Positions 30,264-36,938 of a stretch of DNA of 54,409 bases are shown one piece after another (position 1 is the stretch's first letter; each line of letters starts with the position of its first letter). The position numbers and the translations under genes were made by a program. The stretch is taken from contig PKUE01000169.1 in the NCBI GenBank assembly GCA_002869685.1, forward strand, positions 1,576 through 55,984, given 5' to 3'. Under the pieces are notes generated by a model. That model was not told the DNA's origin. It saw only the letters and a list, made by a program, of their open reading frames with translations, and did not search any database. The DNA comes from Desulfuromonas sp. (GTDB lineage: Bacteria > Desulfobacterota > Desulfuromonadia > Desulfuromonadales > Desulfuromonadaceae).

Positions 30264-31769
30264 ATGACCCTTACCTGCAGCTGGCAACTCCCCACATCCC
30301 TCAACCGTGACACCGTGCTGTCGGCATTGCCCAGCGGCATGACAGCCGCGCCAAAGTCAACGCAAGAGGTCCGCGTGAGCGTGCTCGACGACGACCAGTG
30401 GCACATCTGTCAGCGCGGCGACCTGCTACTTTACAACCACCAGGACTCGCGGTTGGAGCTCTGGCAACAGCAGCAGAGGCTTGCTCAGGAAACCCGCCCG
30501 CTCACCATCCGCTTTCACTGGCAGCTCAACGACCCTGCCCTGGCTAAGCTGCTGCAGGCCCGACTGGGGGTACGCGCATTTACTGAAAAATTCACCTCCG
30601 AATGGCAGCAACATCATCTGTCCGTGTACAACAGCGACGATAAAATCATCGTCCGTCTGACATTTACCACCCTCAACAGCGTATCCCGAGAGCTTTTATC
30701 ACTCCTGACTATACAGCCGCTGCGGGGCTACGCCAAAGAAGCACGCCAGCTGTGCCGTAGCCTGAAAAAACTGGGAGCGACCCCCTGCGACCAGCTGACG
30801 CCTCTTCAACTGTTGACTCTGAGCGGATTGAACGTGCCGTTGCCGCGCCACCGGCCACCATTCAACCTGCACGACGACGAAGTGACTGCGGTGGCAATCA
30901 TGCGCATGGTCGGCCAGATTGTGGAACAGGCTCGCGCTCAGGAAGAGGGTTTGATCGCCGACATTGACAGTGAGTTTCTCCACCAGTACCGGGTTCAGCT
31001 GCGCAAGGCACGCTCACTGGTCAGCCTGTTTAAGAAGGATCTGCCAGAACCGGCTTTTCACCAGCTCAAGTCATCCCTCAAAGAGCTGAGTCAGCACACC
31101 AACCTGCTCCGTGACCTGGACGTCTTTCTGCTCGACCACGATCATTATCTGACCATGCTGCCTGAATCCCTGCGCCCCGGGCTGGAACAAGCCTGCCGCC
31201 ATATCCATCGGCTGCGCAAACGAACATGGCAAAAGGTGATCACCGCTCTCGACTCAGCCGACCATCGGGACAAAATGGACGAAATCAACCAGGCGATGAC
31301 TGCCCCCCGTTTGCAGCCCCGGGGAAAAAAACTCAAACAGCGCGTTGACCACCACATCGTCCGGCAGCACCGGCATATCTGCACCAGCGTCAGCACCCTC
31401 AGCACCTCCTGCAGTGACGACGCCATTCACCAGTTGCGAATCGAATGCAAGAAACTGCGTTATCTGCTGGAACTGTTTGCCGAACTCTATCCACGCAAAC
31501 CTCTCAAAGTTCTGACACGCGAACTTAAAGCCCTGCAGGAGACACTGGGACGCTTTAATGACTTTACGGTTCAGCACCAGTTTCTCCACCAGCTGGCTGG
31601 CGAATTACGCGACAGTGACCAAAAAAGCAGTCTCAATGCCTTGTCGGCCCTGCTCTACCAGGCCCAGAAGCAGGAAAAGAAACAGGTCTTCAGCATCCTG
31701 AGCACCTTTGATTGCGACGAAACCACGTCCCGAGTCCATCAGTTGTTAGCCTACGGAGAACCCTCATGA
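30264..31769 (+). CDS. CHAD-domain protein (polyphosphate-binding family)
   Basis: The 501-residue protein ends in a CHAD domain (about residues 205-480), a helical bundle with conserved basic residues and histidines: LHQYRVQLRKARSLVSLFK around His240 and IHQLRIECKKLRYLLELF around His389, with LRDLDVFLL and LGRFNDFTVQHQFL. CHAD proteins bind inorganic polyphosphate and some localise to polyphosphate granules. Residues 80-165 (TIRFHWQLND to QPLRGYAKEAR) faintly resemble a CYTH-like module, without its charged active site. The ATG at 30264 follows AGAGG. The stop overlaps the ParA start by four bases, so CHAD and ATPase are made together. I infer that it is the cargo adaptor of the ParA system. 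Confidence 0.88.
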   Translation: MTLTCSWQLPTSLNRDTVLSALPSGMTAAPKSTQEVRVSVLDDDQWHICQRGDLLLYNHQDSRLELWQQQQRLAQETRPLTIRFHWQLNDPALAKLLQARLGVRAFTEKFTSEWQQHHLSVYNSDDKIIVRLTFTTLNSVSRELLSLLTIQPLRGYAKEARQLCRSLKKLGATPCDQLTPLQLLTLSGLNVPLPRHRPPFNLHDDEVTAVAIMRMVGQIVEQARAQEEGLIADIDSEFLHQYRVQLRKARSLVSLFKKDLPEPAFHQLKSSLKELSQHTNLLRDLDVFLLDHDHYLTMLPESLRPGLEQACRHIHRLRKRTWQKVITALDSADHRDKMDEINQAMTAPRLQPRGKKLKQRVDHHIVRQHRHICTSVSTLSTSCSDDAIHQLRIECKKLRYLLELFAELYPRKPLKVLTRELKALQETLGRFNDFTVQHQFLHQLAGELRDSDQKSSLNALSALLYQAQKQEKKQVFSILSTFDCDETTSRVHQLLAYGEPS

Positions 31770-32545
31770 AAACAATTGCCTGCTACAGCATCAAGGGCGG
31801 CGTCGGCAAAACCGCTTCAGCAGTGAATTTCGCCTATTGGGCAGCACAGGAAGGGCTGCGCACCCTGCTGGTGGACCTCGATTCTCAGGGGGCGTCATCT
31901 TTTTATTTTCGGGTCCGCAACCCCGAGCCAAAAAATTGGGGCAAGCGGTTTTTCGATAGCGCTCACCCGCTGGTCAAACAGATCAAGGAAAGCGACTACG
32001 ACCATCTGGATATTCTGCCGGCCCATGAGTCGTTCCGCAACTTCGACAGCCTGCTGCACCAACAGGGCGGCAAGCACAACCAATTGAAAAAAATCCTTCG
32101 CGCTGTGAAAAGCGGCTACGACGTTATCATCCTCGATTGCCCGCCCAGCATCAGTTTTCTGGCGGAAAATGTCTTTGCTGCCGCAGATGCGGTTGCAGTG
32201 CCACTGATTCCCACCACCCTGTCGCAACGCACATTTGATCAGCTTCTGGCATTTTTCGACCAGAACAACTACCCGCAAGCCAAACTCAGACCGTTCTTCA
32301 CCATGGCTGATGGCCGCAAACAGTTGCATCTGGACACAGCCGCAGCGCTGAGAAAACGGTATAAATTCTTTCTTAAAAATGCTATTCCCCATTCCACTTA
32401 CGTTGAAAAGATGGGGGTACATCGCACACCGATTGATCTCTTTGCCCACGCAAGCCGGGCGAACAGCTGCTACCGGGCTCTTTGGCGGGAAATTTCCGAC
32501 TCGGTCGCACTCGGCGAAGACAATCACAGCAAACAGGGGGAATGA
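31766..32545 (+). CDS. ParA/McdA-type cargo-positioning ATPase
   Basis: The 259-residue ATPase has the deviant Walker A KGGVGKTA with signature Lys10 and Lys15, Walker A' LLVDLDSQGASS and Walker B VIILDCPPS (Asp124). No N-terminal helix-turn-helix is present, so it resembles short ParA (type Ib) or McdA-like proteins. Such ATPases coat the nucleoid in an ATP-dependent way and move plasmids, carboxysomes or other cargo. No parB, parS or plasmid gene is nearby. It starts inside the CHAD stop and ends in the start of the ribbon-helix-helix gene, so the cargo is probably defined by these partners. Confidence 0.9.
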   Translation: MKTIACYSIKGGVGKTASAVNFAYWAAQEGLRTLLVDLDSQGASSFYFRVRNPEPKNWGKRFFDSAHPLVKQIKESDYDHLDILPAHESFRNFDSLLHQQGGKHNQLKKILRAVKSGYDVIILDCPPSISFLAENVFAAADAVAVPLIPTTLSQRTFDQLLAFFDQNNYPQAKLRPFFTMADGRKQLHLDTAAALRKRYKFFLKNAIPHSTYVEKMGVHRTPIDLFAHASRANSCYRALWREISDSVALGEDNHSKQGE

Positions 32546-32724
32546 TGAGCGAAAAGAAGAAAAAGAAGAAAGACAGCCAGCTGTTGATCCGCATCAACGG
32601 CGAAGAACGGGATCAATTTGTCTCCCTGTGTGATGAGCTGGACACCAGCGCCGCCCGGGAGATCCGCAAATTCATCAAGACATTTATCCGCGAACATCAC
32701 AATAACGACGACGATTTAACCTGA
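32545..32724 (+). CDS. Small ribbon-helix-helix-like protein with polylysine N-terminus
   Basis: The 59-residue product starts MSEKKKKKKDS. It then has a short strand (QLLIRI), a helix and a second helix (TSAAREIRKFIKTFIREH), the pattern of a MetJ/Arc-type ribbon-helix-helix fold. GGGGGA five bases before supports the ATG at 32545, which overlaps the ParA stop; another ATG at 32542 is possible. In plasmid systems small ribbon-helix-helix proteins act both as ParA partners and as operon repressors. The lysine tail could contact DNA or polyphosphate. Confidence 0.7.
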   Translation: MSEKKKKKKDSQLLIRINGEERDQFVSLCDELDTSAAREIRKFIKTFIREHHNNDDDLT

Positions 32725-32754
32725 TTCCCCCCTGCACCCTGAAAGGAGCGCACA

Positions 32755-33114
32755 ATGAACACACCGATCCTCAACGTCCGTGGCATTGGCCCGGCAGCGG
32801 CAACACTCTTGGCCGAAAACGGCATCTCCAGCGCCGAACAACTGGCTCAGCAAAAAGTAGGCACGCTTGCCGCCATCAAAGGCTTCAGTGAGACCCGTGC
32901 GCGCCAGGTCATTGCCGATGCCGCTGCCCTGTTTACAACCAGCACCGTCAGCAAACCGGAAGAACCTGCAGCAAAAAAAGAACAACGTGCTGAAAAACAG
33001 AAAACAGACAAGAAGTCGGCCACAAAGAAAGCGGCCAAAAAGGGGAATAAGAAAAGCAGTGCTCAAAAAACGAAAAAGAAGAAAAAGGGCAAAAAAGGCA
33101 AAAAGAAAAAATGA
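32755..33114 (+). CDS. Helix-hairpin-helix protein with histone H1-like lysine-rich tail
   Basis: The 119-residue protein has an N-terminal helix-hairpin-helix pair (ILNVRGIGPAAATLLAENGI, LAAIKGFSETRARQVIADA) of the kind that binds DNA nonspecifically. From about residue 73 it becomes a Lys/Ala/Ser tail ending in KKKKKGKKGKKKK, resembling histone H1, AlgP and the tail of PhaM, which links polymer granules to the nucleoid. AAAGGAG with a normal gap precedes the ATG. It is the last gene of the CHAD-ParA operon, 30 bp after the small protein. Confidence 0.8.
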   Translation: MNTPILNVRGIGPAAATLLAENGISSAEQLAQQKVGTLAAIKGFSETRARQVIADAAALFTTSTVSKPEEPAAKKEQRAEKQKTDKKSATKKAAKKGNKKSSAQKTKKKKKGKKGKKKK

Positions 33115-33241: not shown

Positions 33242-34504
33242 CTACGGCAATACCGGGTTGCGCCAGGGCCGCAACGTTTCCGGATTGAGATTGCGCCGAC
33301 CATCAAAAAAATCGCATGCGCGGTAGTAACGCAGATCTTCGCGCCACAGGCGGTAAAAATCACGATCCTTCCATAACCGCCGCGCCAGTCGGCCCGGAGC
33401 CGTGCGCAGATCAATCAGGGGAGAGAACAGTTCCGTCGGGTCGCGAAAGCATTCCCAATCACAACGTCGGCAGGGTTGTGCGACGCCACACGGTTGCGAC
33501 GGCATCTCTTCGAAGCGACCTAGATCTTCCTCGCCGCGATAACCACAGGGGTAACTGTGGCCGGTGCGACTGTCGACAAAGAAATAATCGCGCCCACCGC
33601 GGCAGGGGGTGGTCAACTCCTCGTGCCCCCGATACTGCTGCAACAGGGCATGCAAACTACAGCGCGGGGTAAAGATGCGAATCTTTTCCCGGTGCGCGGG
33701 GATCGCATCACTCAAGGCCTGAAACAGGTTGAGCTTCTCTTCGGCGGAAAAATACACCACCCGGTCACTGGCCGTCGCCGCGTACACCGCCTGATTGGAA
33801 TTATCATCACCGTGCATGGGATAACAGACGTTGGCAATGGTGAAACCCAGGTCGGCAACGAAGCGGTAAAAACGGTCAAATCCGCCCCGAAAGAACGGAT
33901 AGTCGAGCTGTTCCCGATCTTTGTCCCGCCCGGTGAAATAGCGATTGATGCCGAGGTTGGCGGACAGATATACCCCCCGCTCGGCAAAAATCGGCAGAGC
34001 CTTCTCCACCCCTTTGATCACCCCCGGCAAGCCGCGCATCTGTTCATGGGTCGCCACATCAGAGGAATCAATACTCACCCAGATATTGCGCAGCGGTGTT
34101 GCCGCCAACTTATCTGCCAGCGCCTTCATCCGGTCGGCAAAATCGGCACGCTCGGCGTTGCGGAACAGATAGCCATTGGTGCCAGTACGAATATAGCGAA
34201 TCTGCTGGTCACCCGCCAGCGTCGCCAACCGGCAGATTTCATCGAGGCATAAAAAGGGTTCGCCGCCGGTAAACGACAGGGCGGCCACTCCCTGCTGCGC
34301 CGCATGACGGATCATCTCCGCCACCCGCTGTTCAGCCAGGGTGGTGCGGGTAAAATCATTGCCGACCCGCATGCCGCACTGCGGACAGGTGGCATTGCAG
34401 CGATCGGTGTACTGGACAATCAACTGGCCGGGAATTCGACCGGAAGCAAGCAGCCGGCCCGTCACTTTAAGCGCTTCTCTCACAGGGGAAATTCGTTCAG
34501 TCAT
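33242..34504 (-). CDS. Radical SAM protein with C-terminal cysteine cluster, function unknown
   Basis: The 420-residue protein has the radical SAM motif CNATCPQC (Cys36, Cys40, Cys43), FTGGEPFL and SIDSSD. The C-terminal part holds CSLHALLQQYRGHEELTTPC, YPCGYRG and CGVAQPCRRCDWEC, a SPASM-like set of cluster ligands. Its start overlaps the end of the PHP-glycosyltransferase gene by eight bases, so both act on one path, perhaps modification of a glycan or glycolipid. I cannot name a substrate. Reading frame and length are clear. Confidence 0.82.
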   Translation of the reverse strand: MTERISPVREALKVTGRLLASGRIPGQLIVQYTDRCNATCPQCGMRVGNDFTRTTLAEQRVAEMIRHAAQQGVAALSFTGGEPFLCLDEICRLATLAGDQQIRYIRTGTNGYLFRNAERADFADRMKALADKLAATPLRNIWVSIDSSDVATHEQMRGLPGVIKGVEKALPIFAERGVYLSANLGINRYFTGRDKDREQLDYPFFRGGFDRFYRFVADLGFTIANVCYPMHGDDNSNQAVYAATASDRVVYFSAEEKLNLFQALSDAIPAHREKIRIFTPRCSLHALLQQYRGHEELTTPCRGGRDYFFVDSRTGHSYPCGYRGEEDLGRFEEMPSQPCGVAQPCRRCDWECFRDPTELFSPLIDLRTAPGRLARRLWKDRDFYRLWREDLRYYRACDFFDGRRNLNPETLRPWRNPVLP

Positions 34505-36938
34505 AAGAATGGACCATCATGTTAGAGGCTAATTTCAGCAACCCGCCCAATCCGGGTTGATGCCGATGGCGGACCGTCCGTGGCAACGTCGTGTCGGTGG
34601 GTCGGGTCATCTCCAGCAAAATGGCGTCCCAACTGAAGCGTTGCTCGATGTGCTGGCGGGCCGCCCGGGCCAGGCGCTGACAGGTTTTGCCGTCGCCATC
34701 AAGGTCTGCCAGCAGGGTGTCGAGTTGATCGACCCAGGCCGCTGTGTTTTCTGCCGGCAGAACGAAGCCGGTTTCACCATCGACGATAATCTCCTTGGGA
34801 CCGCCGATATTGGAGACCAGTGCCGGCAGGCCACAGGCCTGAGCTTCAAGGACGACCATGCCAAAGGTGTCACTCAAGCTGGGGAAGACAAACAGATCGT
34901 GACTGGTGTACACCGACGGCAGTTCGTTGTAGGGAACCCGACCGAGAAATCTCACCTCGGGAAGGTCGCGGCAAGCCATTTTCAACTCGGCAAGATAGGG
35001 GCCGCCCCCGGCAAGGCTTAAACAGATGCCGGGATGGCGCTGACGCACCGCGCGATAGACATCGAGCAAGAAGTCGAGATTCTTGTCCTTGGAAATCCGC
35101 CCGACATAGAGCAGACGGTGGCGCCCACCCGGTTCGATAACCGGCTGTTCACGCGGGAAAAAATGTTCGGTCCGCAATCCCCGGCGAAACAGGGCCATGT
35201 GGCGATGGCGATAACCACGTGCTTTGAGCAACTCCATATATTCTCCAGTCGGCACCAGCAGGGTATCCATCTGATTGAAAAACCACTTGCTGTACTGCTC
35301 GATCATGTCGCAGATCGCCGGCTCTTCGATAATCGACTCCGCCTCGACGGTGAAATCGGTGTGATAAATCCCCTTGACCTCCGTACCGAGCATGCGCCCG
35401 ATCAACAAGCCGAGCAGCCCCACCGGGCCGGGCGTGGAAATATAGACCTCATCGGGATTGTAATCGTAGACCATCTTCAACATGCGCAACACCGACGGCA
35501 CATTGACGGTGATATCTTCGTAATGGGGCAAGGCCGTCGAATAAAGCGGTGGTACGATCAGAGTAGCCTGCGGCAACCCGGAATGTTTCTGCTCATCGGT
35601 CAGGCTGGTCATAATGCGAATGGCAAAGCCCTTCTCTTCGGCGAGATGACCGATGGTCTGCAACGTCATGGACACGCCGTTCAGATCGGTCAACGTATCG
35701 GTCAGCCACAGAATCCGTTTGGCGCGCCGGGTCACCTGTTTGCCGAGGCTGGCATTGAACTCGTTGATCAGCTGGCGGTCACCAAACATATGGCGAAACG
35801 ACGAGAAAAACGGCACCGACAGGAAGATGCCCGGAATCGACGACGACAGCCCCTGGATAATACGGATAATATCCATCTCGGTGATATTGGTGTTGAGCGA
35901 ACCGAGCAGCGAGCGGAAATACTGGTCGGAAATATTGGCAATACAGTCGTAGAGCAGATCGAGGCGTGAATCGATATCGTCCTGCTGCAGGTTGCGACTG
36001 GTCTCAATCAGTTGAACCAGATTTTGATAAACCTGATTGTTCTTTTTCGACTTCATTTTATTGAGACGCAGCCGGTCCTTGAAACTGAGCTTTTTGTCGC
36101 TGAACAGGTAGCGGGTCAGATCGCTGAGGGTCGACTGGGCAAAGGCGGTGCTGTTGTGCTGGGAGAAGTCGAAGGCGATCTTGTAGATGGCGAAAGTCAG
36201 CCCCTGAAAATCGTTCTGCCGACCACACGGTTCGGTCGCTCCGCGCCTGAGCTGATCAAGAAACTCCTGTGGGGTACGCGCCTCAGCACGAGTGGAGGTT
36301 TTGGCGACAAACAGCCCGGCATGATCGTCGGAACCACCGGTCAGCCCCTTCAACCACGGAGTGCGTCCCCAGGGCTCAAGGGCGTGCTTTTGCGCCAGCC
36401 GTTCAATATCTTCCGGGGTCAGCCCGTCCAGCACCTGCGTCAAAATATCGTTATTCAGAACACTGCGACTGCCGTTACGCCCCTCGAAGTTATTGAACAG
36501 CACCAGCAATTTTTCCAGATGTTCCAGCGTCAGACGGTTGTTGACCGCGTAGGTGGCATGGGCGACAACGCACGGCAGATCCTCTTTGAGCAGGAAGTCG
36601 CGCAGTTTATAGATATTTTTGCGTTTTTTCTGGATTTTACTGAACTGGTCGCGATCGAGACCGTAGATAAGAATGTGAACTTTGCATTTATCCTCGGGAA
36701 AATACGCCGTCGCCTCCACCCCGCTGAAACAGTGCTCGGGGTACGTCTCCACCAGTTCCAGCGACGCCTTGATGCGGTTGTGATCGGTGATGGTGACAAA
36801 ATCCATCCCGCGCTGACGGGCCAGTTTGTAGATGGTTTCAGGTTCGGTGTAGGATTCTGATGCGCCAAGGCGTTGCAAAAACCATTCGGAAGGGTGATTG
36901 GAATACTTCGAGTGAACGTGCAGATCGATCTGGGCCAT
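34497..36938 (-). CDS. PHP-domain phosphoesterase/glycosyltransferase (GT4) fusion
   Basis: The 813-residue protein joins three parts. The N-terminal PHP domain (about 1-240) shows metal-binding motifs DLHVHSKYSNHP, TITDHNRIKAS and GGSDDHAG. A helical middle (about 240-400) is unfamiliar. The C-terminal half (about 410-790) is a group 1/GT4 glycosyltransferase: GVSMTLQTIGHLAEEKGF, LLYVGRISKDKNLDFLL and FPSLSDTFGMVVLEAQACGLPALVS. The two enzymes could hydrolyse a phosphoester and transfer a sugar on the same molecule. No signal peptide or membrane segment is clear, so it is probably cytosolic or membrane-peripheral. It is followed by the overlapping radical SAM gene. Confidence 0.88.
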   Translation of the reverse strand: MAQIDLHVHSKYSNHPSEWFLQRLGASESYTEPETIYKLARQRGMDFVTITDHNRIKASLELVETYPEHCFSGVEATAYFPEDKCKVHILIYGLDRDQFSKIQKKRKNIYKLRDFLLKEDLPCVVAHATYAVNNRLTLEHLEKLLVLFNNFEGRNGSRSVLNNDILTQVLDGLTPEDIERLAQKHALEPWGRTPWLKGLTGGSDDHAGLFVAKTSTRAEARTPQEFLDQLRRGATEPCGRQNDFQGLTFAIYKIAFDFSQHNSTAFAQSTLSDLTRYLFSDKKLSFKDRLRLNKMKSKKNNQVYQNLVQLIETSRNLQQDDIDSRLDLLYDCIANISDQYFRSLLGSLNTNITEMDIIRIIQGLSSSIPGIFLSVPFFSSFRHMFGDRQLINEFNASLGKQVTRRAKRILWLTDTLTDLNGVSMTLQTIGHLAEEKGFAIRIMTSLTDEQKHSGLPQATLIVPPLYSTALPHYEDITVNVPSVLRMLKMVYDYNPDEVYISTPGPVGLLGLLIGRMLGTEVKGIYHTDFTVEAESIIEEPAICDMIEQYSKWFFNQMDTLLVPTGEYMELLKARGYRHRHMALFRRGLRTEHFFPREQPVIEPGGRHRLLYVGRISKDKNLDFLLDVYRAVRQRHPGICLSLAGGGPYLAELKMACRDLPEVRFLGRVPYNELPSVYTSHDLFVFPSLSDTFGMVVLEAQACGLPALVSNIGGPKEIIVDGETGFVLPAENTAAWVDQLDTLLADLDGDGKTCQRLARAARQHIEQRFSWDAILLEMTRPTDTTLPRTVRHRHQPGLGGLLKLASNMMVHSYD

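Follow-up and report, generated by a model that had tools for sequence, protein, structure and literature searches.

A conserved CHAD–ParA gene pair in Desulfuromonas, a candidate positioning system for polyphosphate granules

What could a ParA-type ATPase be moving when its gene lies in an operon with that of a CHAD protein? The question is raised by a 54,409-nucleotide stretch of DNA from Desulfuromonas sp. (contig PKUE01000169.1; this whole stretch is referred to as the window), in which four co-directional genes on the forward strand, downstream of an IclR-type regulator gene, code for a CHAD protein, the ParA ATPase, a ribbon-helix-helix (RHH)-like protein and a helix-hairpin-helix (HhH) protein with a lysine tail. 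CHAD proteins bind polyphosphate (polyP) and sit on granules, their physiological roles being called undefined (PMC6537752; this and the other papers cited by number are drawn on for selected passages). A first-pass annotation took the four genes for a possible partition system of polyP granules, an interpretation which is partly supported here: the core finding has become stronger, and the two small genes hold a less central place than first read. In the best reading of the locus, the operon is probably an ATP-driven positioning (partition) system for polyP granules, in which CHAD would serve as the cargo adaptor. The observations underlying this reading are the pairing of the genes, their co-occurrence, the lack of an adjacent ParB, the domain architecture and the conserved polyP contacts.

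Conservation of the pair and its polyphosphate neighbours

Among 40 related genomes, orthologues of the window ParA occur at 69-74% identity in four congeners and at 44-48% in members of three further families of the order, with a broken copy in a fourth family (G019); other ParAs lie well below, at about 30%. A named scan added six Oceanospirillum/Marinospirillum genomes with ParA at 55-59% identity. In both sets CHAD precedes ParA at every locus except the second copy of genome G008, and the operon locus is syntenic in the congeners. Surveys of the window's own phylum and of Gammaproteobacteria, the class of Oceanospirillum, were made with a ParA profile of 14 sequences. In the phylum, 19 of 345 genomes match at 5.3e-80 or better and the next match reaches only 4.6e-40, and in the class 57 of 369 genomes match at 1e-50 (58 hits). 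The limits of the family rest on this score gap (5.3e-80 against 4.6e-40), because the ParA tree is weak: it is the product of a quick search and has many weak forks, 12 of the 22 control rows were omitted from it for an in-frame stop and L039 and L122 for their odd length, and two non-family rows (L011 and L024) fell inside the family with a branch length of 10, probably an artefact. On this tree, loci that lack CHAD are scattered (9 changes for the CHAD label).

The stretches fetched around the ParA matches were annotated with profiles built in this analysis. Of the 88 family loci (L035 and L063-L065 are not counted among them), 66 have a family CHAD as the immediate upstream neighbour of ParA, which supports the pairing read from the window at first pass, and Pfam adds three divergent CHADs beside ParA (G523, G636 and G587). 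The share in the own phylum, with the window counted, is 15 of 19 ParA loci, one of the remaining four (L049) being truncated by the end of its contig; in Gammaproteobacteria it is 43 of 58 ParA matches, and there the pairing varies with the score (39 of 41 down to an E-value of 1.3e-91, 4 of 17 below it). The two genes are separated by -23 to +86 nucleotides (nt) at the 66 junctions, with the ParA start set by rule. Since such starts are often too late, 22 of 66 is an underestimate of the exact 4-nt overlaps; the possible ones number 46 of 66, these being junctions at which the ParA frame offers an NTGA start that would give such an overlap.

The association is also apparent from the side of CHAD and at the level of whole genomes. 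Thirty-eight genomes of the own phylum bear a CHAD; 18 of them have it in a frame of at least 500 amino acids (aa), beside a family ParA in 15, and the CHADs in shorter frames are beside one in 0 of 20. By Fisher tests, which ignore relatedness, CHAD is enriched with ParA both in Gammaproteobacteria (50 of 57 genomes with ParA vs 70 of 312 without, p 4e-21) and in the own phylum (16 of 19 vs 22 of 326, p 1e-14). The tree distances of CHAD and ParA correlate, in a comparison made without species control, at r 0.82 over 62 loci, a value reached by 0 of 2000 shuffles; the set comprises the window and 61 of the 66 pairs (L039, L098, L103, L111 and L122 omitted). Judged from the sequences, CHAD and ParA are thus an old, conserved pair, and the case envisaged at first pass, of a gene order limited to one strain, does not hold, the pair being found across several bacterial groups.

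Genes of polyP metabolism neighbour this pair and co-occur with its ATPase, which upholds the polyP link suggested initially. Single seeds, applied within the fetched flank of 76 survey loci (window not counted), detect ppk1 at 14, ppx at 7, CYTH at 10 and SixA at 25, and among the loci L031-L122 a Nudix seed matches at 12. Genome G015 has ppk1, CHAD, ParA, CYTH and SixA in this order, with ppx beyond, and the order of G216 (CHAD, ParA, CYTH, RHH, HhH) bridges both styles of locus. The megaplasmids of Paracoccus marcusii and P. aestuarii have a small RHH-like gene, CHAD, the ATPase, CYTH and NUDIX in a row. Within the own genus, ppk1 is present in all five genomes with a family ParA and in none of the five without it; among the 40 relatives it occurs in 9 of 9 with ParA (the broken G019 included) vs 11 of 31 without, and in Gammaproteobacteria in 52 of 57 vs 166 of 312 (Fisher p 1e-8).

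Two arrangements within these neighbourhoods deserve mention in their own right. At L110 (4671-7689) a family ParA directly follows ppk1, with no CHAD between them. At L049, L050, L051 and L058 the SixA frames are 289-355 aa long and the same or an overlapping frame matches the Nudix seed, which suggests Nudix-SixA fusions or overlapping genes in a polyP cluster.

The core proteins and their accessories

The window ParA carries the deviant Walker A motif KGGVGKT, and K10, G11, G12, G14, K15, T16, D39, D124, P126 and P127 are invariant in the 14-sequence alignment. Its signature lysine, further Walker motifs and match to PF13614 place it, at the level of sequence, among the ParA/MinD deviant Walker A ATPases. 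The closest solved chains are ParA/Soj, at 3.8e-31 well ahead of a MinD chain at 8.6e-11. Scores against Soj 1wcv and McdA 6noo are 8.3e-23 and 1.5e-11, respectively. Membership in McdA was considered and rejected, as the Soj chains are far above McdA and the overlapping gene codes for CHAD; McdB was not searched for. The protein is basic, with a pI of 9.25 in the window and a family median of 9.4. Many ParAs share two DNA-binding arginines (R195 and R224 of CcParA; PMC7229837). In an alignment read by eye, the first is kept as R184 in the window and is not kept across the family: Oceanospirillum has S at this position (with an R one place before it in most), and the adjoining K185 is invariant in the family; the second is lost, being Y in the window and D or E elsewhere.

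The CHAD protein of the window yields a confident model (pLDDT 91.7, pTM 0.86), in which an N-terminal TTM/CYTH-like beta barrel is followed by a C-terminal CHAD domain. Of the solved structures, that of CtCHAD bound to polyphosphate (6QVA) matches it most closely, with TM-scores of 0.91 (target) and 0.57 (query). Ten residues of CtCHAD are named as polyP contacts in PMC6537752, and all ten letters agreed when they were placed by number. The six "core" and "front" places are all kept in the window protein (H240, R243, R247, R283, R419 and K422), and the four "back" places hold V366, R367, R370 and H371, i.e. two basic residues, one His and one Val. With a CHAD domain and most of the named contact residues, the protein has the features of the polyP-binding CHAD (phosin) class, and polyP binding is predicted for it. 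The motif ExExK occurs within the first 60 aa in 0 of 62 paired CHAD frames, a set with the same five omissions as the distance comparison and with some frames that start too early, which affects the 60-aa span; it is carried by 11 of 11 stand-alone CYTH neighbours. Only two ExExK-like words appear within the first 200 aa of 25 aligned CHAD rows, and 5 of the 55 rows with a located core have such a word, at about 122 or 182 and not in the first strand. The barrel is therefore probably structural, and an active TTM enzyme was rejected on the same ground, the catalytic ExExK not lying in the first barrel strand.

The first-pass annotation treated all four genes as one system. A search of neighbourhoods upholds the CHAD–ParA part; the four genes as a single conserved unit are rejected, since the RHH and HhH genes are restricted to few lineages. 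The core is CHAD–ParA, to which the RHH and HhH/polylysine proteins are added as accessories in particular lineages.

The gene of the 59-aa protein is present as described, and its RHH label is weak. RHH_9 is matched by 6 of 11 aligned RHH-like proteins (best 7.5e-4, 19.8 bits vs a cut-off of 23.4), an alignment which judging by number is that of the window's clade, its members not being named in the list. The AlphaFold monomer has two helices (19-32 and 35-58) and no strand at a mean pLDDT of 73.8, and a search of the Protein Data Bank with it gave no significant match. Outside the own genus, the window type was found in G216 alone. At 5 of 6 Oceanospirillaceae loci and in both Paracoccus records examined, the gene just upstream of CHAD codes for another RHH type, which likewise has a lysine-rich arm; a profile of this type found no further family at other loci, and RHH genes are absent from most family loci. 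That loci of one kind carry different RHH types suggests that these were recruited repeatedly, as an operon repressor or as an ATPase activator. In the ParF-ParG system, it is an RHH protein that activates the ATPase.

The HhH protein has 24 lysines in its last 49 residues. Six of the nine ParA-family genomes among the 40 relatives code for it, in seven copies which all lie at CHAD–ParA-type loci, one of them in a degenerate cluster of G008. The 31 relatives without a family ParA have none, setting aside a weak match in a 651-aa frame (G026); a similar weak match lies inside a 1197-aa frame in G027. The proposed tie of this gene to the system holds among the 40 relatives, where all its copies lie at such loci. 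Beyond the own genus, the gene was found in G216 and G015 and at three gammaproteobacterial loci only (L069, L072 and L073), at which it follows ParA after 170-178 nt.

Two further observations concern these small genes. Between ppk1 and ppx, L036 (6375-6917) and L037 (6504-7097) encode HhH proteins whose long C-terminal parts contain lysines, scoring against HHH_5 at 9e-9 and at 1.1e-4 (under the cut-off), respectively. The degenerate G008 cluster (G008:C2; L035, 6697-7896) is a second one in that genome and comprises a split ParA, RHH and HhH, with only a CHAD fragment near.

A candidate mechanism and its alternatives

In the positioning mechanism proposed here, the CHAD protein would coat the granule through its polyP-binding domain and act as the cargo adaptor, in place of the ParB or McdB of other systems. 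ParA-ATP would bind the nucleoid non-specifically, and contact with granule-bound CHAD would stimulate ATP hydrolysis, so that granules move along the ParA gradient, are spaced and are shared out at division. In the lineage of the window, the RHH protein with its basic arm may help the contact between CHAD and ParA, and the HhH/polylysine protein may provide an extra tether to DNA or polyP, in the manner of AlgP or PhaM. A broader proposition is that of a widespread, modular machine for ATP-driven segregation of polyP granules, built of a CHAD and ParA core, polyP enzymes, lineage-specific RHH activators and HhH tethers, in which RHH proteins with basic arms would be ParG-like activators recruited more than once; the chances of this extended version appear evenly balanced.

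The main rival to positioning is that ParA regulates polyP metabolism, as an ATP-dependent dimer which binds CHAD, Ppk1 or other granule enzymes, switches the synthesis or breakdown of polyP and has no part in where granules lie. The frequent neighbours are indeed enzymes (Ppk1, Ppx, CYTH, SixA and Nudix), and ppk1 directly precedes parA at L110 with no CHAD between; yet the family is closest to the Soj/ParA segregation ATPases, the protein is basic, as expected for nucleoid binding, and the window lineage has HhH and RHH-like proteins, both of DNA-binding types (the latter weakly supported), so that regulation is rather unlikely. ParA might also place the granule at a pole or membrane, like MinD or ParC, instead of spacing it over the nucleoid. 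Granules of polyP at the poles have been reported for some species (PMC13052382), and in Ralstonia eutropha over-expressed CHAD proteins sent the granules there (PMC6537752); with ParA/Soj as the closest solved relatives and the MinD chain far lower, polar placement is improbable. It would be more surprising still if CHAD and ParA were merely co-expressed and acted in different processes. The evidence is all genomic and some family members lack CHAD, but the tight junction is kept over several classes in changing surroundings, and the distances of the two proteins are correlated.

Partition of DNA, by a plasmid or mobile-element system lying near CHAD by chance, is scarcely credible. In its favour, the ATPase has the ParA fold, centromere binders are known among RHH proteins, the RHH protein of Paracoccus has a weak match to ParG (0.014, under the cut-off) and the Paracoccus copies lie on large plasmids. 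However, a single ParB seed, positive at 22 of 22 control ParA loci (L009-L030) and at two of three extra controls (L063-L065, not L063), matched at 0 of the 88 family loci, where parB thus does not accompany parA, in agreement with the initial observation in the window; RHH, moreover, is absent from most loci. Plasmid partition was rejected on the missing ParB and the synteny of the locus in congeners. Only 11 of 72,556 plasmid records match ParA at 1e-20, all at less than 60% identity. Five of the 11 were examined; the copies on Marinobacter and Pontibacter plasmids have no CHAD beside ParA, and the Halomonas record carries no annotation. The Marinobacter copy, of 41% identity and on the conjugative plasmid pMAQU02 of Marinobacter nauticus VT8 (L126, 1673-6747), has phbB and pyruvate kinase genes nearby and possibly serves another storage-granule cargo.

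Several points weigh against positioning of polyP granules by CHAD and ParA. As many as 62 of the 76 survey loci lack ppk1 in the fetched flank, the ppk1 of the window's own genome is on another contig, and 5 of the 57 gammaproteobacterial genomes with ParA show no ppk1. The five genomes of the own genus without ParA and ppk1 are smaller and three are less than 90% complete, so that one joint loss, or assembly gaps, could be the source of the pattern. No CHAD lies beside 15 of 58 gammaproteobacterial hits and 4 of 19 phylum members, and of the 18 long-frame CHADs in the phylum three (G284, G263 and G053) lack a neighbouring ParA of this family. When 22 genomes with a family ParA and no adjacent family CHAD were re-searched, nine had no CHAD at all (one of these, G367, is 76% complete), nine had it elsewhere, one had a fragment (G545) and three had a divergent CHAD beside ParA; ParA can therefore work without CHAD or serve other cargo. 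To these may be added the relatedness which the Fisher tests and the distance correlation leave aside, the canonical DNA-binding arginines of ParA, which are only partly kept, and the ParA-activating motif, of which none was found and for which no systematic search was made. Deleting CHAD genes in R. eutropha had no apparent phenotypic effect (PMC6537752).

The locus and its place among known systems

The features of the locus are collected in Table 1. The four genes lie where they were first placed, their coordinates and overlaps being confirmed together with Pfam matches for CHAD, the ATPase and HhH. CHAD and parA overlap by 4 nt (ATGA) and parA and the RHH-like gene by 1 nt, and plausible ribosome sites, judged by eye, precede the genes. 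In a scan against NCBIfam, no listed model reached its cut-off. The stem-loop between the IclR gene and the operon, which has a T-rich tail, is only suggestive as an upstream border, because shuffled sequences yield equally many terminator-like sites (5 found in the region vs 4.9 expected).

Table 1. Features of the CHAD–ParA locus (positions in the window)
Feature	Position	Strand	Remarks
Terminator-like stem-loop	30159..30187	+	13-pair stem then TTTATTTT; possible upstream border
CHAD protein, 501 aa	30264..31769	+	PF05235, E 2.9e-51; proposed cargo adaptor
ParA/Soj-type deviant Walker ATPase, 259 aa	31766..32545	+	PF13614, E 5.8e-35; proposed positioning ATPase
RHH-like protein, 59 aa, lysine-rich N-terminal arm	32545..32724	+	PF19839, E 0.015, below Pfam cut-off; accessory
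HhH protein with lysine-rich tail, 119 aa	32755..33114	+	PF14520, E 3.4e-12; accessory, proposed nucleoid/granule tether
Radical SAM protein and 813-aa glycosyltransferase genes	33242-36938	-	adjoining the operon

The radical SAM/glycosyltransferase pair is kept beside the operon in congeners (L031, L033, L034 and L035) and was not seen at the chromosome-1 locus of G008 (L032). The N-terminus of the glycosyltransferase is weakly PHP-like (0.0057, under the cut-off), and its gene also occurs near the G216 locus and near the CHAD-less ParA of G283.

The pairing of ParA with CHAD offers a concrete candidate for the placement and inheritance of granules and for the role of CHAD. Such a system, if real, would be the first known case of a polyP granule being positioned at the expense of energy, and would add a new class of cargo to the ParA/MinD family. 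In the literature covered (titles and openings of abstracts of the papers listed, with preprints and most subscription journals outside the scope), no ParA was found to be proposed for polyP granules. A 2025 review tabulates, in the part drawn on, only AlgP for polyP and leaves open whether energy is spent (PMC13052382), and the text of the AlgP paper mentions neither "ParA" nor "McdA" (PMC9239181). The view that no such gene set had been described needs correction in one respect, as a conserved neighbourhood of folD, ppk, parA and CHAD has been printed for Acidithiobacillus (PMC10892726), and again within a cAMP model (PMC6416229). By gene content, this ppk-parA-CHAD cluster resembles the loci described here; it differs in its published setting, which in the passages drawn on is that of copper or cAMP, with no positioning proposal.

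Among systems of known function, that of McdA and McdB, which positions carboxysomes, would work similarly, a ParA-type ATPase there placing a cargo other than DNA by way of a partner bound to that cargo; the proposed adaptor here is CHAD, and the window ParA is nearer to Soj than to the solved McdA. ParABS partition of chromosomes and plasmids shares the ATPase fold and the Walker motifs, yet no parB adjoins the family loci and the window ParA stays under the cut-off of each NCBIfam model listed (25 of 29). The phosins, i.e. the CHAD proteins of Ralstonia, CtCHAD and YgiF, likewise have a polyP-binding CHAD domain, and YgiF also the TTM and CHAD architecture (PMC6537752), whereas the window CHAD has a barrel without ExExK at its start and is paired with a ParA. 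AlgP of Pseudomonas aeruginosa (PMC9239181, PMC13052382) and PhaM/PhaF have a lysine-rich, histone-H1-like tail as does the HhH protein, and their spacing of granules on the nucleoid is proposed here by analogy; unlike in AlgP, the tail sits on an HhH domain in an accessory protein, the likeness being one of tail composition.

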